Source of the DNA: Nitrososphaerales archaeon TH5894
Lineage (GTDB): Archaea; Thermoproteota; Nitrososphaeria; Nitrososphaerales; Nitrososphaeraceae
Direction: 5' to 3'
DNA: 11,314 bases
Assembly: GCA_014523485.1 (NCBI GenBank)
Contig: JAATVK010000028.1
Location: forward strand, 1 to 11,314
Part shown: piece by piece, positions 1,021 through 11,294 of the stretch
Layout: the number at the start of each line of letters is the position of its first letter
How positions within the stretch are numbered: position 1 is the first letter of the stretch
Notes under the pieces: generated by a model
What the model saw: the letters and a program-made list of their open reading frames with translations, nothing else
The model's database searches: none
Told to the model about the DNA's origin: nothing
Program-made: the position numbers and the translations under genes

Positions 1021-2616
1021 TTATTTCAATTGTTTTGTGACATAGGGACCGTTTTGAAGATATCCTAATTTCCGATAATAAGCCCGAGTTCCAATTGCAC
1101 TAATGACAGAGATTGTATCTACTTGAAACTCATCTTGCGAAATTTTTTCTGCTTCTTTCATTAAACGCAAACCAAGACCACCATGTTGGAATGCTAAAGA
1201 CCCTTTTTTTTGTCCAACATCTACTACTTGTCCATAGACATGTAATTCTCTGATGATCGCAGAGGATTTATTATTGGCATAATGTAATTCATTTCTATGA
1301 GAAAATGGAATATTTCTCAATCTCAGAAATCCAAACAATAAATTTTTATCTCTATTTTCCATAGATAAAAATACTTCTTTTCCTTTCGATGCAATGTAAT
1401 CGATTCTATTGAGTATTATTTCATCTTGATTAAAATTTTCAAGTTTTTGTAGTCCTGCTTCTCGACATCTTATGCAATTACATTTCAAGCCCAAGTCCTT
1501 TAATTTTTTTATAGCTATTTGGCGTATATTTCCCTTTTTTGGTCCTGCTATAATATCTGAAGTTTCAATTTCTCTTTGAATTCTCATTATTCTAACCCAA
1601 GGTGGTATTAACTTTTTTACTTCAACAAGAATATTTACTATATCTTCTTCGGTATAAGCATCATATTTTCTATTCATATACAATTTATATAATCCAGTAT
1701 TTTTGAGAACTAAAGTTGGATATATTTTAAGCATATCTGGTTTAAATAAATCATTTTCTAACAATGTTTTAAATCCCTTAATATCACTTTCTACTGTAGA
1801 ACCGGGCAGACCAGGCATCATATGTGCGACAATTTTGTATCCACAATTTCTAGCAATTTGGAATGACTGTTTAACATCTGTTAAATTGTGTCCTCTGTTA
1901 ACCACTTTATAGATATTCTCCTGTAATGTTTGGACACCTATTTCAATTCTTGTTATTCCTAGTTCTAACATCAAATCTAAGTGTTTTTCTTTACAATAGT
2001 CGGGTTTTGTTTCAACTGTAAACCCTACACACCGAATCTTCGCTTGTTCATTTTTTCTACAAGATTCCTCTAGAGTAGTAGAAGAAAGGTCATCATTTAA
2101 AGCGTCAAAACATTTTTTAACAAATTCTCTCTGGTAATTTTCTGGCATGAATGGAAAGGTTCCACCTACAATTACTAGTTCAATTTTAGTAATATTATGT
2201 CCTCGTTGATAGAGTTGATTAAGTTTTGACTTTATCTGGTAATATGCATCATATTCAAAAGACTGTGCTATTTTCGTGGCGGGTTCTGTTCCAACATAAC
2301 TCATTGGAGTATTATATTCCGGTCCACCCGGACAATAAATACATTTACCATGTGGACACTCATACGGTTTTGGCATAACTGCAATTACTGCAACACCAGA
2401 TGCAGTTTTCGCTGGTTTAACTACTAGAACATCTCTGTAATTACTATTTTTTGGAAGATAAGGTATGATATGTTCTTTCTTTGGAACCACAGTCAATTTA
2501 TAAGTAGAACATGTTAAACTTATAATTTTGTTGATTTCTTTTAGGGACATATTACTATTATTTTCCAATTTCAGTGCAATAGATTTACAGGCTTGAGAAT
2601 AGCAAATAGATTCCAT
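1021..2616 (-). CDS. elp3: Elp3-type tRNA uridine(34) carboxymethyltransferase (radical SAM + acetyltransferase)
   Basis: This 531-residue protein is archaeal Elp3, which acts alone, without the eukaryotic Elongator partners, to place a carboxymethyl group on C5 of wobble uridine 34 in tRNA, using S-adenosylmethionine and acetyl-CoA. The radical SAM domain spans about 60-385. The 4Fe-4S ligands are C87, C92 and C95 in CPHGKCIYCPGG, the compact CX4CX2C spacing typical of archaea. VGGTFPFMP follows near 149-158, then ETKPDYC at 202-208 and GVQT at 227-230. C379, C381 and C384 (CNCIRCRE) form the family's zinc site between the domains. The C-terminal GNAT domain (about 390-531) shows the acetyl-CoA loop QHGGLG at 477-482 and the YYRKLGY element at 513-519. 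The length is normal and no domain is missing. It is divergent from the DHH gene. A start at M23 is possible, but the ATG used here gives the usual N-terminus. Confidence 0.95.
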   Translation of the reverse strand: MESICYSQACKSIALKLENNSNMSLKEINKIISLTCSTYKLTVVPKKEHIIPYLPKNSNYRDVLVVKPAKTASGVAVIAVMPKPYECPHGKCIYCPGGPEYNTPMSYVGTEPATKIAQSFEYDAYYQIKSKLNQLYQRGHNITKIELVIVGGTFPFMPENYQREFVKKCFDALNDDLSSTTLEESCRKNEQAKIRCVGFTVETKPDYCKEKHLDLMLELGITRIEIGVQTLQENIYKVVNRGHNLTDVKQSFQIARNCGYKIVAHMMPGLPGSTVESDIKGFKTLLENDLFKPDMLKIYPTLVLKNTGLYKLYMNRKYDAYTEEDIVNILVEVKKLIPPWVRIMRIQREIETSDIIAGPKKGNIRQIAIKKLKDLGLKCNCIRCREAGLQKLENFNQDEIILNRIDYIASKGKEVFLSMENRDKNLLFGFLRLRNIPFSHRNELHYANNKSSAIIRELHVYGQVVDVGQKKGSLAFQHGGLGLRLMKEAEKISQDEFQVDTISVISAIGTRAYYRKLGYLQNGPYVTKQLK

Positions 2617-2650
2617 AATAATTACTTAATAACGTAAATACAAAGAGAGA

Positions 2651-2660
2651 TTTAAAAATA
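2651..2660 (-). promoter_or_regulatory. TATA-like element for elp3
   Basis: On the minus strand TATTTTTAAA lies 35-44 bases before the elp3 ATG. With archaeal TATA-to-start spacing of about 25 bases, transcription would begin near 2626-2635, leaving a leader of roughly 10-20 bases. There is no clear Shine-Dalgarno sequence before the ATG. The surrounding DNA is so AT-rich that other TATA matches exist. Confidence 0.35.
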
Positions 2661-2791
2661 TGTATTATTAAAAGTGTTATATTATAAAGATATTCACTTA
2701 CTGGTAGATCATTCTCAAAATAGAGACAAAAATTACTAAACATTAATTGAAACGACCTTGAGACGATGGTTGAGGATTAACATAATCAATA

Positions 2792-2799
2792 CTTATAAG
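2792..2799 (+). promoter_or_regulatory. TATA box for the DHH-YrdC-THUMP group, leaderless start
   Basis: CTTATAAG ends 22 bases before the ATG at 2822. That spacing puts the transcription start at or next to the start codon, implying a leaderless mRNA as is common in Thaumarchaeota. No Shine-Dalgarno sequence lies between it and the ATG. It would drive the first gene of the rightward group. Confidence 0.5.
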
Positions 2800-2821
2800 A
2801 AAATAAAACTAATACAAAATA

Positions 2822-3778
2822 ATGAAAGTTACATTATTTTCTCATGAATCAGATGTTGATGGGATCTTTTCTTCTTCTATCGGTTTAATTCGGTATCCCC
2901 AGGCGAGAACTTTTTTTCTAGATTACAGCAAAGAAAGTTTTATGAAAATAATTAATCAAATTTTTTTTTCAAAAGAATTAGATGAGAAAAATATTTTTAT
3001 TGTATCAGATCTCGGTTTTAACGATAGTTTGTTAAGTATTTTTAAAAGTACTTTTTTAGGTTGCAAAAAATCACATAATGAAGTTATCTGGGTTGATCAT
3101 CATCCATGGTCTAAAAATACAATAGATGAAGTAAATCCATTTGTCGAGTTAATATTGGATAATTCAGGAATAAAATGTGCAGCTGAATTAATGTATGAAC
3201 GTTTTTTATTGGATAATGCCTATGCTAAACATTTAGCTAATTTAGCACATACAATAGATTTTTTTACTAAGTCTCACTATCTTACTCCATTACCAGAAAT
3301 TATAAGATACTACCTAAATTTTAATGACTCATATGAAAGATTAGCAAAACTTGCTCATAAGATATCAAATGGAATATTATGGGATATTGATATGAGTGAG
3401 GATTATACAAAATATGAAACCTTGAGAGATACAGATAAAAAATTAGTATTAAATGACTTAAATATTAAGAAAATAAATGAGTTGAATGTTGTATTTGTTA
3501 GGTCATCACCATATATCCAAACAAGCTTATTTTCAGAAGAGGTATTCAATCTCACCAATGCAGATGTTGCTATATTTTATGGAAAAAATGGTAAAATAAG
3601 TATTAGAAGAAATAATGACAAAATTGATTGTAATGCAATCGCTTTAAATTTAATTGACGGAGGAGGTCATAAATTTGCTGCAGGAGGAACAGTACGAAGT
3701 GATCCAAATAAATTAGAGGACATTATTTCAGAAATTGAACAAATAATTCTTAAATTAAAAACATCCCTGAATAAGTAA
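2822..3778 (+). CDS. DHH-family phosphoesterase (NrnA/NrnB/RecJ-like)
   Basis: This 318-residue protein has the full set of DHH superfamily metal motifs. SHESDVDG at 7-14 carries the first aspartates (D11, D13), VSDLG at 61-65 has D63, WVDHHPW at 90-96 is the name-giving DHH motif, and HTID at 143-146 has the fourth aspartate. The C-terminal DHHA1 domain ends with GGGHKFAAGG at 280-289, the substrate-binding glycine loop. Members use two metal ions, usually manganese, to hydrolyse phosphodiesters in short oligonucleotides, cyclic dinucleotides or single-stranded DNA. At this length, without extra domains, it resembles archaeal NrnB-like (COG2404-type) proteins more than full RecJ, but the substrate cannot be told from sequence. 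All catalytic residues are present, so it should be active. It leads a rightward gene group, with a 48-base gap to the YrdC gene. Confidence 0.88.
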   Translation: MKVTLFSHESDVDGIFSSSIGLIRYPQARTFFLDYSKESFMKIINQIFFSKELDEKNIFIVSDLGFNDSLLSIFKSTFLGCKKSHNEVIWVDHHPWSKNTIDEVNPFVELILDNSGIKCAAELMYERFLLDNAYAKHLANLAHTIDFFTKSHYLTPLPEIIRYYLNFNDSYERLAKLAHKISNGILWDIDMSEDYTKYETLRDTDKKLVLNDLNIKKINELNVVFVRSSPYIQTSLFSEEVFNLTNADVAIFYGKNGKISIRRNNDKIDCNAIALNLIDGGGHKFAAGGTVRSDPNKLEDIISEIEQIILKLKTSLNK

Positions 3779-3805
3779 ATTATATAATTAGCGTTTACTT
3801 TAATT
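3779..3805 (+). promoter_or_regulatory. TATA-like sequences before the YrdC gene
   Basis: The 48-base gap after the DHH stop holds ATTATATAATTA at 3779-3790 and TTTACTTTAATT at 3794-3805. The second ends 21 bases before the ATG at 3827, right for a leaderless start. The gene may therefore have its own promoter in addition to read-through from the DHH gene. Base composition alone makes such matches common. Confidence 0.3.
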
Positions 3806-3826
3806 CAAAATAAATCAAGAAATAAA

Positions 3827-4456
3827 ATGATAATACTGGATGGTAAAAAAGAAGAGGACTTGATCAAATGTAAAGAAATAATTATCAATGGAGGAATAAT
3901 TGTGTTTCCTACAGATACTATTTATGGTTTAGGTTGTGATCCCTATAACGAAAAATCTGTAGAAAAAATTTTTAGATTGAAAAATCGTTTACTAGAGAAA
4001 GCTCTACCTATTCTAACTTGTGACATTAGTCATGTAGAAGAAATAATGATTTTAGATGAAAATGGAAGAAAATTAGCTAATTCTTTTTGGCCTGGTCCTT
4101 TAACTATCATAGGTACTTTAAAAGATAACTATATTCCAAAAATAATTACGGCAGGTAAACAAACCATTGGTATGAGAATTCCGAATAATATAGTAACATT
4201 AACTTTGTTAAAATATTGCAACTTTTTAGTTGGTACCAGTGCTAATATTTCAAATGAAAAATCCTGTTTATATGCTAAGGAAGTAATGAAATCTCCTCTG
4301 GTTGGATATGATGCTATAGTAATTGGAAATGAAAAGAAAACTAATAATCATTTTTCTTTAAAAGGTTCAACAATAGTTGATGTGTCTACTTCTAATATCA
4401 AGATAGTTAGAGAGGGAGTCATAAAATCGGAAACTATTTACCAAATTTTAGATTAA
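3827..4456 (+). CDS. tsaC: Threonylcarbamoyl-AMP synthase, YrdC-domain only (t6A tRNA modification)
   Basis: The 209-residue protein is a YrdC/Sua5-family enzyme. It makes threonylcarbamoyl-AMP from threonine, bicarbonate and ATP; the KEOPS complex then transfers the group to A37 of tRNAs reading ANN codons. PTDTIYGLGCD at 28-38 is the family signature, K52 and R54 form the KxR pair, K58 lies in the usual KALPIL-like strand, and PGPLT (89-93), RIP (117-119), GTSAN (136-140) and STIVD (181-185) line the nucleotide pocket. VREG at 194-197 closes the domain. The Sua5-specific C-terminal domain found in many archaea is absent, so it is of the shorter TsaC form. The next gene begins 8 bases after its stop, with no visible Shine-Dalgarno site, so the two are very likely co-transcribed. 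Confidence 0.92.
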   Translation: MIILDGKKEEDLIKCKEIIINGGIIVFPTDTIYGLGCDPYNEKSVEKIFRLKNRLLEKALPILTCDISHVEEIMILDENGRKLANSFWPGPLTIIGTLKDNYIPKIITAGKQTIGMRIPNNIVTLTLLKYCNFLVGTSANISNEKSCLYAKEVMKSPLVGYDAIVIGNEKKTNNHFSLKGSTIVDVSTSNIKIVREGVIKSETIYQILD

Positions 4457-4464
4457 TTATAATA

Positions 4465-5016
4465 ATGAATTTTAATTTATTGGTTACAACTTACAGACAT
4501 AGAGAATATGATGCTGTTGATGAATTAAATGTGATTCTTCAACGATTTGGTTTTGAGGCGCAGATTATAGAAATCCAAAAGGTATCTGGTATAATTCTTG
4601 CATTAGCTAATTTAAATCCATTTGAACTAATAACAAAATTCAAGAAATTATTGACAGAAGAACCCTGGCAATTTAGGTATATATTAAGAGTGATACCTAT
4701 TGAGAAAACTCTCTATACGGATATTAAAAATATTGAAATAGAAGGAAAGAACCTTGCATTGAAGAAAATTAAAGTAAATGAATCATTTAGAATCTCAATA
4801 GAAAAAAGACATACATCAACAAGAAGTAAAGAAATAATATCATCTATTGCAAATAAACTTACTAGATATCAAGTTTCATTAGAGAATCCTGATTGGATCA
4901 TATTAATTGAAATCATAGGCAATAAAACCGGAATTTCAGTATTGAAGGAAAGAGATATTTTTAATTCAATAATGGAAAAAAGAATGGCAGGGTATTCAAT
5001 AGAATCGTCAGGCTAA
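4465..5016 (+). CDS. THUMP-domain RNA-binding protein (COG1818/Tan1-like)
   Basis: This 183-residue protein has no methyltransferase or other enzyme domain. The C-terminal half is a THUMP domain: the IEKRHTSTRSKEII segment at 112-125 and NPDWIILIEIIGNKTGISVL at 141-160 match its core strands and helix, and the N-terminal 60 residues form an alpha/beta lead-in. THUMP domains bind the acceptor end of tRNA. Stand-alone versions include yeast Tan1 and human THUMPD1, which help the Kre33/NAT10 acetyltransferase form N4-acetylcytidine at tRNA position 12; by analogy this protein may present tRNA to an archaeal TmcA-like acetyltransferase, though no such gene is in the window. The 8-base gap to the YrdC gene supports a tRNA-modification role. 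The domain assignment is firm, the partner is inferred. Confidence 0.82.
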   Translation: MNFNLLVTTYRHREYDAVDELNVILQRFGFEAQIIEIQKVSGIILALANLNPFELITKFKKLLTEEPWQFRYILRVIPIEKTLYTDIKNIEIEGKNLALKKIKVNESFRISIEKRHTSTRSKEIISSIANKLTRYQVSLENPDWIILIEIIGNKTGISVLKERDIFNSIMEKRMAGYSIESSG

Positions 5017-5147: not shown

Positions 5148-6086
5148 ATGTTTAGTAAAAATCATTTTTTTGGCAAAGATATAGTTTCAATTAGAGATTT
5201 TTCGAGAAATGATTTAGAATTTATATTTGATTCAACAGATAAAATTCAACAATTAACACCTGAGGAAAAAAGTGAACTAGGCAAAGGAAGAACATTAGGT
5301 TATATTTTTTATGAACCCAGCACTCGAACCAGAATGAGTTTTGAAGCTGCTATGGCAGCTCTGGGGGGAAGTTCAATAGGAATTTTTGATTCAAAATTTT
5401 CAGCTATAGAAAAGGGCGAATCTCTTGCTGATACTATAAGAATAATAGACTTGTATTCTGATGTTATAGTACTTAGACATGCACGTGATGGCTCAAGCAG
5501 ATATGCAGCTGAACTTTCGTCTAATCCCATAATTAATGCAGGAAGTGGAAGTGAAGAACATCCAACACAGGCAATGCTTGATTTGTATACGATTTTTAAG
5601 GAAAAAGGTAGGATAGATAATTTGACAATTGGAATAGTTGGTGACCTAAAATATGGCAGAACTGTATACTCTTTATTGTATGGATTAAAAAATTATCATG
5701 TAAATGTACATTTAATTTCCCCACCTAGCCTGGCAATTAGAAAGGAGTCTATTTTTGAATTTGAAAGGATCATGAACATTAACCATTACGATTATCTTGA
5801 TGATATAATTCCCCAACTTGACGTACTATATGTTACAAGAATACAAAAAGAAAGATTTCCTGATACTCAGGAATATGAAAAAGTAAAAGGCACTTATCGA
5901 ATAGATGAAAAAATATTAGATGATGCTAAAATTGACCTGTCAATTATGCATCCTTTACCAAGATTAGATGAAATTTCGCATACTATAGATAATACTAAGA
6001 ATGCAATTTATTTTAAACAGGCGGCATATGGAAAGGAGTTACGTTCAGCTTTATTGGCTTTAATATTAAATGAGGATCCTTTTTAA
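5148..6086 (+). CDS. pyrB: Aspartate carbamoyltransferase catalytic chain
   Basis: The 312-residue protein catalyses the first committed step of pyrimidine synthesis, joining carbamoyl phosphate and aspartate to give carbamoyl-aspartate. The carbamoyl-phosphate loop FYEPSTRTR is at 54-62 (S58, T59, R60, T61). S85 and K89 in SAIEKGES match the loop contributed by the neighbouring subunit (E. coli S80 and K84). R110-H111, HPTQ at 138-141, DLKYGRT at 166-172, R231 in TRIQKERF and HPLPR at 268-272 complete the active site. Length is normal for a catalytic chain. In many archaea the regulatory chain gene pyrI follows at once; here the next gene is nrdJ on the other strand, so no pyrI is present beside it. 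Any allosteric control would need a pyrI elsewhere in the genome. Confidence 0.96.
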   Translation: MFSKNHFFGKDIVSIRDFSRNDLEFIFDSTDKIQQLTPEEKSELGKGRTLGYIFYEPSTRTRMSFEAAMAALGGSSIGIFDSKFSAIEKGESLADTIRIIDLYSDVIVLRHARDGSSRYAAELSSNPIINAGSGSEEHPTQAMLDLYTIFKEKGRIDNLTIGIVGDLKYGRTVYSLLYGLKNYHVNVHLISPPSLAIRKESIFEFERIMNINHYDYLDDIIPQLDVLYVTRIQKERFPDTQEYEKVKGTYRIDEKILDDAKIDLSIMHPLPRLDEISHTIDNTKNAIYFKQAAYGKELRSALLALILNEDPF

Positions 6087-6210: not shown

Positions 6211-8946
6211 TTAACTTGATACACAACTACTGAATCCACATTCAATACACATATTACAACCTTCAGTAATGATAAGTTTGGATTGACATAATGGACAAAT
6301 CTCGTCTTCATAAATTTCTGGAGGAGGTTTTTGTCTGAAGTCTATAGGCTCTGTACCTTTATACTTTTTTTGTGTCGATAGTGGTATGTCATCTACAACA
6401 TCATCAGTTACTTCAACATCCTTCGTTTCAATTAGCTTTGAAACATAATGAATAACATATGGTTCTTTTATTTGTGATTGAATGTATTCCTTGACGTAGT
6501 TGCTAGGTTTTACAATAAACGATTTTTCTAAGGTATTAGTCCCTGTAATATGTAAAACTTGTTCATTTCGTGAACCATCTCGATATACAGTCACTCCCTT
6601 TAATCCCAGTTCATGAGCGAGTAGATAAGATGATTTGACGTCCTCAACGGTTACATCACCTGGCATGTTAATAGTTTTCGCTATAGCATTACTTATCCAT
6701 CTTTGCCAGACAGATTGCGCCATTATATGATCTGTCCAATGAATATCAATTGCTGTTGTAAATAAGGACTGCATCCATTGTGGTATCTCATTTAATCCTC
6801 TAACTGATCCGTAATTATTAGCTATTTTTGTTAAGATATCGTCGTTATACAGACCATTTTCTTTTAATACACTTTCAAATATTTTGTTAGTATAGAAAAA
6901 TCGACCTACAGTTACTCGTTTTTCAAAAACTAAAGCAAAGACTGGTTCTACTCCGTTAGAACAATCTGCTATCATAGAGAGAGTGCCAGTAGGTGCTATA
7001 GTGGTAGTCCACGCATTACGAATGCCGTATTTCTGGATTTTTTCAATTAAAGAATCCCAATCATAAGAATGATTGTGTTTCGGTGTTTCATAATAGCCAG
7101 CGACAGGAATTTTTTCTGCTACATAGTCACTTTTTTTGAATAATGGAAACGAACCTCTTGATTTAGCAATTGCTATGCTTTCTTCCATACTATAATAAGT
7201 TAAAGTTTCAGCAAGTTTGTTCATGAATTCGTACCCTTCTCGAGAAGTATAAGGAATTCGTAATGAAAATAAAAGATCTGCTATTCCCATTATTCCTAAT
7301 CCTATTCGCCTTGTAAGTTTTGTATTATAGTCTATTTCATCAACAGGATATTTATTAGCATCGATAACATTATCTAAAAATCTCGAAGAGATTCTTATAG
7401 CTTGTTCAAACCTAGGCCAATCAAAATCATACATTCCATCTGCCTTGCGTTTTACAAAATTTGATAAATTAATGGACCCAAGGTTACAAGATTCATATGG
7501 ATATAATGATTGTTCTCCACAAGGGTTTGTAGCTCTAAGGCGTCCTTCTTTTGCTTTAATACATGGATTGTATTTATTTATGTTATCAAAGAAGATAATA
7601 CCTGGTTCTGCACTCTTCCACGCACTTAAGGATATAAGATCAATCAGTTGATGGGAATCTATCTGTTTAAGTGGCTCATGTGTTCGTGGATTTCTAAGAG
7701 TATATTTATTATTATTATTAGTATTAATAAGTGCCCTCCAAAAATCTTCCCATAACCCAACGCTGACGTTAAAATTTTCAAAAACACCAGGTTTTGTTTT
7801 TGCAGTAATAAATTTTTCGATGTCTGGATGCCACACTTCTAGAATCCCCATATTTGCTCCACGTCTTTTGCCACCTTGTTTAACAACATCTGTGATTGTA
7901 TCTATAATCCGCATAAAGGAAGCAGGACCAGAAGCGACTCCTGAGGTAGATGCAACTATATCACCTTCTGGTCTCAAATCAGAATAATTAATTCCTACAC
8001 CTCCTCCAGATTTAAAAATCATGGCTGCATCAGAAGATGTTTTCATGATTTTTTCCATGTCATCAGGCATATCCAAAACAAAACATGCCGAAAGTTGTCC
8101 TAAACGAGCACCGGCATTCATTAATGTAGGAGTATTGGGAAGAAAATCTTTGGATACCATTAAGCCATAATATTCTTTTATCCTGTCCTCATAAGAGCTA
8201 AACTTGCCTTGGAAAATTAATTTTAAAAGATCTTTAAAAGAGATTTTCATCTGTCCTTTAGAAGCTAACTGTGTGTATAATCTAATTATTGAATCAAAAT
8301 GATATTTGTTCAAGTAATATGATCCTATCTTTAGTTTAAGATCAAAGTCACTTATTTTATCATAATATGCAGTGGCCTCTGCAATATTTTGTTCGTATCC
8401 ACCAGATATATGAAAGATAAGTGGGTCATGTAAGAGGTCAGGTATAGCCACTAAAATAGCTACACGTTCAAACATTTGCTTAGGAGCTTCAATGATTTCA
8501 TTATTCTCATTTCTTAAAAGATAACGCGAAGATAAGACACGTAGAGAATTTATATCAAAATCCTTATCTATTTCATCAAGGTTTTTCTTATTAAGGATTT
8601 TTATTTTATCTTCTCTTATTTTCCTCCTTTCGTGTCTATAAAGAATGTAAGCTTTTGCAGTATCAGATAATCCCTCTTCAATAAGGATTGACTCAACTAT
8701 ATCTTGAACATCCTCAACACTTGGTATGAAAGATTTATCAAATGAGCTACTATTGAGGGTCATTTTTTTTAAGACTTTTTTAACTAGCCCCTCTGCTAAT
8801 TGAAAATTAGGTTTCCCTGTTGCAATTAAAGCTTTATAGATTGCCTGTGCTATCTTTGATTCATCAAAATTGACTACTCTACCATCTCGTTTTTTTATTT
8901 TAAATACCGATTTATTTTTAGTTTTATCTATTTCTGATACTCCCAT
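6211..8946 (-). CDS. nrdJ: Adenosylcobalamin-dependent ribonucleotide reductase (class II)
   Basis: This 911-residue enzyme reduces ribonucleotides to deoxyribonucleotides using a radical from adenosylcobalamin, so it works with or without oxygen. An N-terminal ATP-cone (about 14-107) begins with KIKKRDGRVVNFDESKI, the canonical form, indicating allosteric control of activity by ATP/dATP. The reductase barrel follows: LPNTPTLMNAG at 269-279, C288 (first redox cysteine), FKSGGGVGINYSDLRPEGD at 311-329, NPCGE at 474-478 with thiyl-radical C476 plus N474 and E478, C487 in SCNLGSINL (second redox cysteine), and the phosphate loop APTGTLSMI at 651-659. The C-terminal tail CPLC (884-887), C897, C900, C903 and C908 is the cysteine-rich end typical of large NrdJ proteins and shuttles reducing power to the active site. 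A short Asn run near 408-413 is encoded by AAT repeats. It lies 209 bases downstream of the putative regulator on the same strand. Confidence 0.95.
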   Translation of the reverse strand: MGVSEIDKTKNKSVFKIKKRDGRVVNFDESKIAQAIYKALIATGKPNFQLAEGLVKKVLKKMTLNSSSFDKSFIPSVEDVQDIVESILIEEGLSDTAKAYILYRHERRKIREDKIKILNKKNLDEIDKDFDINSLRVLSSRYLLRNENNEIIEAPKQMFERVAILVAIPDLLHDPLIFHISGGYEQNIAEATAYYDKISDFDLKLKIGSYYLNKYHFDSIIRLYTQLASKGQMKISFKDLLKLIFQGKFSSYEDRIKEYYGLMVSKDFLPNTPTLMNAGARLGQLSACFVLDMPDDMEKIMKTSSDAAMIFKSGGGVGINYSDLRPEGDIVASTSGVASGPASFMRIIDTITDVVKQGGKRRGANMGILEVWHPDIEKFITAKTKPGVFENFNVSVGLWEDFWRALINTNNNNKYTLRNPRTHEPLKQIDSHQLIDLISLSAWKSAEPGIIFFDNINKYNPCIKAKEGRLRATNPCGEQSLYPYESCNLGSINLSNFVKRKADGMYDFDWPRFEQAIRISSRFLDNVIDANKYPVDEIDYNTKLTRRIGLGIMGIADLLFSLRIPYTSREGYEFMNKLAETLTYYSMEESIAIAKSRGSFPLFKKSDYVAEKIPVAGYYETPKHNHSYDWDSLIEKIQKYGIRNAWTTTIAPTGTLSMIADCSNGVEPVFALVFEKRVTVGRFFYTNKIFESVLKENGLYNDDILTKIANNYGSVRGLNEIPQWMQSLFTTAIDIHWTDHIMAQSVWQRWISNAIAKTINMPGDVTVEDVKSSYLLAHELGLKGVTVYRDGSRNEQVLHITGTNTLEKSFIVKPSNYVKEYIQSQIKEPYVIHYVSKLIETKDVEVTDDVVDDIPLSTQKKYKGTEPIDFRQKPPPEIYEDEICPLCQSKLIITEGCNMCIECGFSSCVSS

Positions 8947-8969
8947 ACAATTCGCCGTCCAAATTCAAT

Positions 8970-8981
8970 CTATATCTTAAA
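8970..8981 (-). promoter_or_regulatory. TATA-like element for nrdJ
   Basis: On the minus strand TTTAAGATATAG lies 24-35 bases before the nrdJ ATG. This is the spacing expected for a leaderless or very short-leader archaeal transcript. The 209-base gap after the upstream gene, with a T-rich tract at its far end, agrees with an independent nrdJ promoter rather than simple co-transcription. Confidence 0.42.
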
Positions 8982-9089
8982 TGATATAACACTTAAATTT
9001 TATTATTATGCAACATAATTAGCTAAAAATCCTATCAATAAATTAGTTTACTTTTCTCTACGGATAGTACATAATAATATATTAGAAAA

Positions 9090-9123
9090 TAACTAGTTAA
9101 ATTTTTTGTTCGTGTAACAGAAC
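9090..9123. promoter_or_regulatory. Candidate operator upstream of nrdJ
   Basis: TAACTAGTTA at 9090-9099 is a perfect 10-base palindrome. Next to it, GTTC at 9108-9111 and GAAC at 9120-9123 form a spaced inverted repeat, overlapping TGTT-N5-AACA at 9107-9119. Winged-helix dimers often bind such sites. They lie 145-180 bases before the nrdJ start, within the gap that separates it from the putative regulator gene, so they are candidates for its binding site. Short AT-rich palindromes also arise by chance. Confidence 0.25.
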
Positions 9124-9136
9124 GTGACTAAGTTTA

Positions 9137-9155
9137 AGAAAAAATAATAGAAAAA
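9137..9155 (-). terminator. T-rich transcript end of the HTH/ATP-cone/NrdD-like gene
   Basis: Directly after the stop codon at 9156-9158 the minus strand reads TTTTTCTATTATTTTTTCT. Archaeal transcription often ends at such T tracts without a hairpin. It would separate this gene's transcript from nrdJ, although partial read-through is possible. Confidence 0.42.
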
Positions 9156-11294
9156 TTATGTCAAAATAGAAGAAATTTTAAAAGAATCACATTTCTTACA
9201 AATTTTTAAATTAGAGATAAAAAAACGTTCTCCACATATATTACATATGGAGAAGTTCTGAGCAAGATAAAAAAAAGGAAGCTTAGCAGATGATTTAATA
9301 ACCTTTTTTACATCATTATTGTCATTAACATTTGTAATATCCAAATCAATAGAAACGCCTCCTTTTAAAAGTCCTTCAACAGATGAATAATATTCTATTA
9401 TTGGCTCCAAATCAAGGGAATCTGAAACAATTTTTTCGCCATCGAGAATTAATCCTTGAGAATAATTCGTATTTTTGTCAGTATTATTCGTTAATGATTT
9501 TCCATATTTCTCAACATCCAAGTCTTTAAATCGAAACGTACTATCGTCTTTTAGCATTGTTATCCTAATTTCTGCATTTCCGTGATTTTCTTTGTTTTTC
9601 TCATTGATTATATCAACAGCAGTTTGAATAACCTTTTTTATCACATTCTGACCCTCGTTATTTTCAGGATGATATCCTAAAATATCATAAACAGATTCCT
9701 GAATTCCTACTAGATTAACCATAGCATCGATTTTTCCCAATTGCAAATTAGATGTCGATTGACTTACTATAGGAATTGTTCCATTTTGAATTAAATTCAA
9801 AATTGAGAGAAAACGTTGGGTTATTATAGAAAGAAGAGGCTTTAATAATATTGCCAATCTTGCCCTGAAATAGGTTTCATCTTTATTCGATTGATATGCT
9901 ATTCTTGGGAGATTAATTGATAAAGATTGTAATACAACAACTGTACTTGTGTTCGGCATTTCTTCAGATTTACATAATCCATACCGTGAGCGAACTTTCT
10001 TTTTTGAAAAAGATATAATCCCTCCGGATTTGGCAAGCTGTACAAGTTTATCAATAAAAGGATCAATATGATCAAGGTCATCATAAACAAAGGAAAGAGC
10101 TATGGTAGGAATGGCTGTAATGGATATATATTTTTCATATCCCTCTAAGAGAGAATTAACAATAGAAATATCATAATTACTCGAGTTAATAGATAATGTA
10201 ACACGTGGAGAGAACGACCCATAGGAGGAGATAGTAGAGGTTAAAAAGAAAATATTTTCTATATTATCTCTCAGGAGTGGACCTGTTTCGCTATTCTTTT
10301 GGATAAAGTCTAAAAATCCTTCAATAACAATTTCTCTTGAGGCTTCCCTGCTTAATAAGGAAAGAATAATTGAGACAATAGATGAAGGTGTTAGCACTGT
10401 ATTGGCTTGAAAGATCCTAGAGACTGTTAGATATCGTCCTTTAATACCTTCAAAAATATTGATTATAGAATTGATATTAGTAAAAATTACATCTGGAATA
10501 ATATTCCAAAATCCACTTTTACCTATATTGATCTCTCCAGTCAAGTGCATATCAACAATATCCTTTGGTAAAGAACTGTTCAAAAGATACTCTGTAAAAA
10601 TTGACTCAGATGTTTTAACAACAAGATCGGGAATTTCCATACTACTAATGCTAGTGTCATGAATAAGAGATACCATATCTGATGGAGGTAGGCCTAATCT
10701 TGCGAGCTTATTTCTATAATCATCATATCCATGCTCAACTAATATGGAATTAGTCATTTCCCTTATAAGTGAAGATGTAAGATAAGAGGTTTGAAGTTTA
10801 TAAATTTTATTTTCCACCTCTTCTGTAATTTTATGGGCAAGTTCTAAGGGCATATTAGCTTCTCTGACTAAAGATTGGATTATTTTGTTGGAATCGAATT
10901 CTTCAATTGAGGGTTTTGTAGTCCTCACATATAATTTACCACTTTCGATAATAGATCTTTCTTCAATTTGACGTGCGAGACTTAATACTAATTTACCGAG
11001 GTTAGTAATTGTATATCGTCTTTCTGCTTTATTAAGAGATACCAAGGATTGACGTAGTAATTTTCTTAAATGATAGGCGAACTTGCCTGATTCTTTTTTG
11101 GATTTGAAGCCAGCAAGAGATTTTAATTCAGAATAAGTCAAAGGACCTTTAGAATAAAGAATTCGAAGAATATCTATACGATTTGGGCTAGCCATAACGG
11201 AAAATATCATTCTGACCCTTCGAGAGGCGGATTCGAGAATACTTCCACGTTTGGGTCCTGTCTTATTAACTATTTGTGATTGTACTCGCTCCAT
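9156..11294 (-). CDS. Winged-helix/ATP-cone/NrdD-like fusion, putative nucleotide-sensing regulator
   Basis: A 712-residue three-part protein. Residues about 25-110 form an ArsR-like winged helix (SPNRIDILRILYSKGPLTYSEL, then a helix with KFAYHLRKL and the wing RRYTITNLGKLVL), a DNA-binding fold. Residues about 119-207 are an ATP-cone ending in GYDDYRNKLARLGLPPSDM, but its start reads VRTTKPSIEEFDSNKI, lacking the usual KRDG. The rest resembles anaerobic ribonucleotide reductase NrdD: MHLTGEINI at 249-257, INLPRIAYQSN at 460-470, VNLVGIQESVYDILGYHP at 526-543, and a zinc site C684-x2-C687-x11-C699-x2-C702. It ends 10 residues later, without the glycyl-radical loop; only one other cysteine exists (C441), and HIHD is replaced. 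It is probably not an active reductase but a regulator, perhaps of nrdJ next door. The frame stays open to the window edge upstream of the ATG, so the start may be earlier. Confidence 0.78.
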   Translation of the reverse strand: MERVQSQIVNKTGPKRGSILESASRRVRMIFSVMASPNRIDILRILYSKGPLTYSELKSLAGFKSKKESGKFAYHLRKLLRQSLVSLNKAERRYTITNLGKLVLSLARQIEERSIIESGKLYVRTTKPSIEEFDSNKIIQSLVREANMPLELAHKITEEVENKIYKLQTSYLTSSLIREMTNSILVEHGYDDYRNKLARLGLPPSDMVSLIHDTSISSMEIPDLVVKTSESIFTEYLLNSSLPKDIVDMHLTGEINIGKSGFWNIIPDVIFTNINSIINIFEGIKGRYLTVSRIFQANTVLTPSSIVSIILSLLSREASREIVIEGFLDFIQKNSETGPLLRDNIENIFFLTSTISSYGSFSPRVTLSINSSNYDISIVNSLLEGYEKYISITAIPTIALSFVYDDLDHIDPFIDKLVQLAKSGGIISFSKKKVRSRYGLCKSEEMPNTSTVVVLQSLSINLPRIAYQSNKDETYFRARLAILLKPLLSIITQRFLSILNLIQNGTIPIVSQSTSNLQLGKIDAMVNLVGIQESVYDILGYHPENNEGQNVIKKVIQTAVDIINEKNKENHGNAEIRITMLKDDSTFRFKDLDVEKYGKSLTNNTDKNTNYSQGLILDGEKIVSDSLDLEPIIEYYSSVEGLLKGGVSIDLDITNVNDNNDVKKVIKSSAKLPFFYLAQNFSICNICGERFFISNLKICKKCDSFKISSILT

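Follow-up and report, generated by a model that had tools for sequence, protein, structure and literature searches.

Locus and domain architecture

The window, by which we mean the whole 11,314-nucleotide stretch of archaeal DNA that was analysed, carries on its reverse strand a 712-residue open reading frame (9156..11294) whose product, called the regulator below after its predicted role, is a single chain with a winged helix of ArsR type, then an ATP-cone and then a body of NrdD fold with a zinc ribbon. This build had been proposed in a first-pass annotation of the locus, and it is borne out by Pfam, by PDB profile matches, by structure models and fold searches, and by comparison with relatives. 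The winged helix occupies residues 18-117 (10944..11243), where the Pfam models HTH_20, above its gathering score, and DUF7347 match and where PDB profile searches return ArsR-type DNA-binding proteins. Its modelled elements are helices at residues 18-34, 37-49, 54-60 and 66-81, a wing of two strands (85-88 and 93-96) and a helix at 98-117. This domain was of low confidence in a first structure model and was resolved in a second, built with sister-class sequences added; the Foldseek and VIA match lists are occupied by the barrel, and the assignment of the head to the ArsR type comes from sequence profiles and model topology. Many of the invariant columns of the family alignment fall in the winged helix.

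The ATP-cone, which is of archaeal type, follows at residues 122-193 (10716..10931; PF03477, 40 bits, together with alignment columns) and has a VRT[ST] variant where a KRDG-type motif would be expected. Residues 227-704 (9183..10616) match PF13597 above threshold and, in the structure model and fold searches, have the barrel fold of class III ribonucleotide reductases (RNRs). The structural comparison proposed in the annotation thus relates the body to NrdD, and the head has winged-helix topology in the second model. The zinc ribbon (C684/C687/C699/C702) lies at 9189..9245. Single-sequence PDB searches with the whole protein and with the ATP-cone alone returned nothing usable.

Downstream on the same strand, beyond a 209-bp gap (8947..9155) that contains the presumed nrdJ promoter, lies nrdJ (6211..8946), identified by domain and family profiles as a class II RNR with an ATP-cone of its own and presumed to be the target. 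It is followed on the forward strand by a convergent pyrB, encoding aspartate carbamoyltransferase (5148..6086), which adjoins the same block in several other lineages. The remaining neighbours (1021-5016) are ordinary ones: an Elp3-like radical SAM protein, a DHH phosphoesterase, Sua5/YrdC and a THUMP protein.

Loss of reductase activity

Catalytic residues were read from an alignment of 69 family rows, corresponding to 66 distinct proteins (three deep members were entered twice), with five NrdDs encoded beside regulator-type genes as references, among which the L210 frame stops before the radical motif. The position of T4 NrdD Cys79, codon 269 (10488..10490), is Val in the window protein and Cys in none of the 69 rows. 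The position of the thiyl Cys290, codon 440 (9975..9977), is Leu in the window protein and Cys in two rows, both from the sister lineage (L204 and L206); Cys441, one residue further on, is not conserved and is Ser in an 86% relative. The glycyl-radical Gly occurs in three rows (L200, L206 and L208); 40 of the 41 class-set rows have lost it along with the tail, and the window protein likewise stops before any glycyl-radical motif. Two of the three catalytic residues survive in L206, and all three in no row. All 69 rows retain the NLPR Asn (T4 N311) and all four Cys of the zinc ribbon, and none has the second His of HxHD (0/69). Judged by these columns, the reductase body is catalytically dead across the family.

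In NrdD the second His of HxHD holds the substrate triphosphate, as described in a section of PMC11226230, and its loss makes a triphosphate-sensing role of that site less likely, which weakens the earlier suggestion that the old substrate site reads nucleotide pools. The domain search put forward in the same annotation did recover PF03477 and PF13597, and it fell far short of the NrdD NCBIfam equivalog TIGR02487 (50.4 bits against a cut-off of 326).

Database naming of the family is divided: many records (P0038, P0055, P0123 and others) are called anaerobic ribonucleoside-triphosphate reductase, and some JGI and NCBI records (P0011, P0012, P0131 and P0200) an ArsR family regulator or helix-turn-helix protein. 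The former names and the PF13597 match would make the protein a working anaerobic reductase to which a DNA-binding domain has been added. This is nevertheless most improbable and is rejected here, given a score so far under the equivalog cut-off, the loss of HxHD and catalytic residues that never occur together.

Gene neighbourhood

In the named loci, which are the best 80 of 357 relatives, nrdJ lies directly downstream on the same strand in 66; among the other 14, eleven end within 545 bp and three have more downstream sequence (L065, L069 and L106). Thirty-five deep loci, picked by hand, comprise 21 tandem arrangements, three convergent ones (f20), in which regulator and RNR share no promoter region, and 11 without an adjacent RNR. 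In groups f18, f21 and f22 the regulator stands apart from any nrdJ (11 loci, one without downstream sequence), and several deep families have as neighbour a distant nrdJ, with identities of about 30-39%. A further 20 loci represent the sister lineage, 12 of them in genomes listed for the class of genome G416 and the other eight not placed. Here an RNR is directly downstream in six (five NrdD-type, one nrdJ), and 14 have no RNR next, two of these with under 450 bp downstream. An NrdD-type match is next on the same strand in 17 G416-class genomes among the matches listed (counted by eye; three overlap the 20 sister-lineage loci). The position directly upstream of nrdJ, which the first-pass annotation had taken as support for a regulatory role, is thus conserved across the order, with nrdD in place of nrdJ in the sister class. 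Since nrdD may occupy this slot there, the regulator would appear to stay while the reductase class changes, and on what we regard as the simplest history one class of reductase replaced another within a fixed slot whose regulator was kept.

Some nrdJ genes are themselves unusual. The nrdJ of L148 and those on G014:C34, G001:C10 and G028:C6 have frames of about 1150-1700 codons in which intein-like insertions split the profile matches, and extra nrdJ copies with ATP-cones occur away from the regulator in G192, G196, G197, G203 and G001 (L174-L178).

The convergent pyrB of the window belongs to a layout, pyrB facing an RNR that is preceded by the regulator, which is kept with either a class II or a class III reductase inside. 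Across the 154 loci scanned, pyrB was found in 33: it is downstream and convergent in 27, one of which overlaps by a few bases, downstream on the same strand in five and upstream in one. It directly adjoins the regulator in six loci, as is possible where the RNR is absent. In L195, L196, L201, L207, L209 and L211 pyrB is convergent beside the regulator or its RNR, and in L203 pyrI takes that place. These associations, together with the ArsR-like head and the four invariant Cys, could indicate a regulator of other genes or signals, either of pyrimidine supply or of a response to metal, redox state or oxygen, sensed at the zinc ribbon or at a site like that of ArsR. We consider this unlikely, as the gene directly downstream is nearly always an RNR in Nitrososphaerales-type loci, a convergent pyrB shares no promoter with the regulator, no pyrB turned up in the named loci of Nitrosopumilus type, and the zinc ribbon is a legacy of NrdD.

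Candidate operator

Of 116 regions upstream of the regulator gene, 35 contain a 16-bp palindrome, GTNAAN6TTNAC, picked after inspection of the sequences; for other genes at the same loci, 12 of 742 upstream regions do so. Thirty of the 35 sites lie at -56 to -58 in the wider family of the window, just above a TATA-like stretch, and these sites come from related genomes. In 17 deep loci the palindrome occurs in seven gaps before the RNR and in five regulator upstream regions, where shuffled sequences gave means of 0.14 and 0.08, and in two of 92 control upstream regions. With a looser score, applied to one representative per 75% cluster only, 13 of 34 gaps and 18 of 48 upstream regions pass, against shuffle means of 3.3 and 3.8.

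The exact palindrome is present in seven of 88 gaps overall. The gap of the window (8947..9155) has no exact copy, the near relatives L060 and L061 are one mismatch away from it, and the upstream region of the window regulator is cut short to 20 nt by the contig end. For the broken copy L173 (in G089), whose regulator falls into two frames and has about three tandem repeats of its 3' end, the upstream region was measured at the wrong fragment. A related pattern, GTYAAN5-6TTGAH, was counted post hoc in 35 of 66 named gaps and in three of 434 controls. None of the 20 sister-lineage loci contains GTNAAN6TTNAC within 200 nt upstream of the regulator or in their six gaps. The regulator-nrdD gap of L197 holds another AT-rich palindrome, TTTATACAAAAAAATTGTATAAA, and TATACAA pieces occur in the gaps of L199, L204 and L213; palindromes of the TTTATACAAAAAAATTGTATAAA type are possibly the operator of the sister-class regulators. 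That palindromes precede the regulator gene and, in deep lineages, also nrdJ suggests regulation both of the regulator itself and of the RNR, and these candidate operators strengthen the reading of the head as a DNA-binding domain.

ATP-cone and nucleotide sensing

A part of PMC9110341 gives V48, K50, R51, E56 and K62 as the nucleotide-contact residues of NrdR, and we mapped these onto the regulator cone by spacing. In the class set V123 and E131 are invariant and position 137 is always K or R (41/41 each), and positions 125 and 126 are T/S and S/T in 40 of 41 rows; hence the positions of V48, E56 and K62 are kept, and K50 and R51 are replaced by T/S. The VRTS motif is common to two of the five neighbouring NrdDs (L197 and L213), so the regulator cone was probably inherited from an NrdD of this kind. 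The NrdDs of L199 and L210 have the second half of the cone in common with the regulator but not the VRTS motif, and the cone of the L204 NrdD is canonical. The predicted role of the cone is to sense nucleotides, a reading against which the missing K50/R51 equivalents count.

In six lineages (G096, G166, G187, G189, G247 and G276) the regulator, in each case beside an RNR, has the only ATP-cone found, and Pfam detects none in either of the two neighbouring RNRs tested from them. A trans-acting cone would make sense in such genomes, and this, along with the conserved reductase fold and a gene that adjoins both RNR classes, lends plausibility to a pseudoenzyme partner that would modulate NrdJ or NrdD by binding to the reductase itself and use the winged helix for dimerisation, not gene control. 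The invariant columns of the winged helix and its profile matches to ArsR-type DNA-binding proteins, the palindromes that recur ahead of the genes and the persistence of the protein where no RNR is adjacent all speak against such a partner, which we regard as quite improbable.

Distribution in archaea

The regulator has matches in 360 of 400 genomes of its class and in 215 of the 220 better ones. E-values are below 1e-20 for 355 of the 360, and the other five are weak (above 1e-7) and cover only the head or a fragment. Its nearest named relatives include Nitrososphaeraceae, Nitrosopumilus, Nitrosarchaeum and Nitrosotalea. Full-length relatives are present in Bathyarchaeia; of 120 proteins listed, the nine that carry an organism name are all labelled Bathyarchaeia or a group within it. 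The wider profile matches 330 of 398 in the phylum and 147 of 151 genomes in the class of G416, figures that mix regulators with weak matches and with genomes matching through NrdD alone. Family f81 of the latter class has NrdD-type matches without a winged-helix regulator among the matches listed, a possible lineage-wide loss. In an unrooted tree the seven NrdDs included form one clade, and a single origin of all regulators is not decidable from the tree alone.

NrdR (TIGR00244) reaches its cut-off in none of 150 class genomes, five weaker matches lying beneath it, and does not match any part of the window protein. This agrees with the description of NrdR as 'rare in archaea' in the part of PMC9110341 cited above, and supports the premise of the first-pass annotation that archaea generally do without it. 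NrdJ is above its cut-off in 94 of 101 class genomes, and NrdD in only four of 150, with sizeable matches below cut-off in G055 and G016. The present findings correct the naming by which an anaerobic reductase is ascribed to these archaea.

Proposed mechanism and significance

On the explanation that we favour, and think likely from the sequence comparisons, a class III reductase gave rise to a transcription regulator specific for RNR genes. Next to the gene of the working enzyme, this inactive copy with its DNA-binding head is probably an on/off switch, for which bacteria use another protein. The NrdR-like role suggested by the first-pass annotation is supported in its main part, the association of reductase genes with an inactive reductase that carries a DNA-binding head, and is weakened for sensing at the substrate site. 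By gene context and build, our best reading is that the protein acts as a functional counterpart of NrdR from outside the NrdR family.

We envisage that the conserved heads would bind the palindromes as a dimer, and that ATP/dATP or another dNTP would bind the ATP-cone and so supply the signal. The state of the cone might then pass to the winged helices through the barrel dimer, for which the barrel would be mainly scaffold and allosteric lever, and binding to DNA close to the promoter would change with nucleotide state. Repression at high dNTP would be the likeliest direction, by analogy with NrdR. One might go further and suppose, tentatively and with more doubt than confidence, that a whole reductase turned transcription factor reads the dNTP pool through both of its inherited allosteric sites, the ATP-cone and the specificity site at the dimer interface, so that transcription of the working reductase tracks both the amount and the balance of dNTPs, and that this is the ancestral RNR regulator of Thermoproteota, kept while class III and class II reductases were swapped alongside it.

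These findings bear on the control of DNA precursor synthesis in archaea that lack NrdR. They offer a specific, near-universal candidate RNR regulator for the class of ammonia-oxidising archaea, with relatives in Bathyarchaeia and with predicted operators that can be tested in vitro; if the proposal is true, it would show clearly that a metabolic enzyme can become the regulator of its working counterpart. No report of the protein was found among the titles and abstract beginnings searched, a search that left out most subscription journals and so leaves absence in print unproven, and the main texts of PMC9669993 (no occurrence of the terms) and PMC9531940 (three unrelated passages) do not mention it.

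Comparison with known systems

The closest functional parallel is NrdR, the bacterial RNR repressor. Both proteins combine an ATP-cone with a DNA-binding domain and are encoded next to RNR genes, and the regulator keeps three of the NrdR contact positions. The K50/R51 pair is not shared. The candidate palindromes before RNR genes and the regulator gene would be a further parallel, though they differ from NrdR boxes and were not found in the window gap or the 20 sister-lineage loci. Whereas NrdR has about 150 residues and binds DNA through an N-terminal Zn-ribbon, the regulator has an ArsR-type winged helix and a full, dead NrdD barrel; with this different architecture and no TIGR00244 match, membership in the NrdR family is rejected. 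Class III NrdD (PF13597; PDB 1h7b, 4coi, 8p23 and 9d3x) resembles the regulator in the fold of the whole body, the NLPR Asn and the zinc ribbon, but the regulator lacks the Cys79 equivalent, the thiyl Cys, the glycyl radical and HxHD, and has gained a winged helix. ArsR/SmtB regulators such as HlyU, CadC and CzrA share the helix order and sequence profile of the head, although the window protein does not reach the HTH_metalloreg cut-off (23 bits against 55), no result points to a metal site and, unlike in those regulators, the effector part is a reductase.
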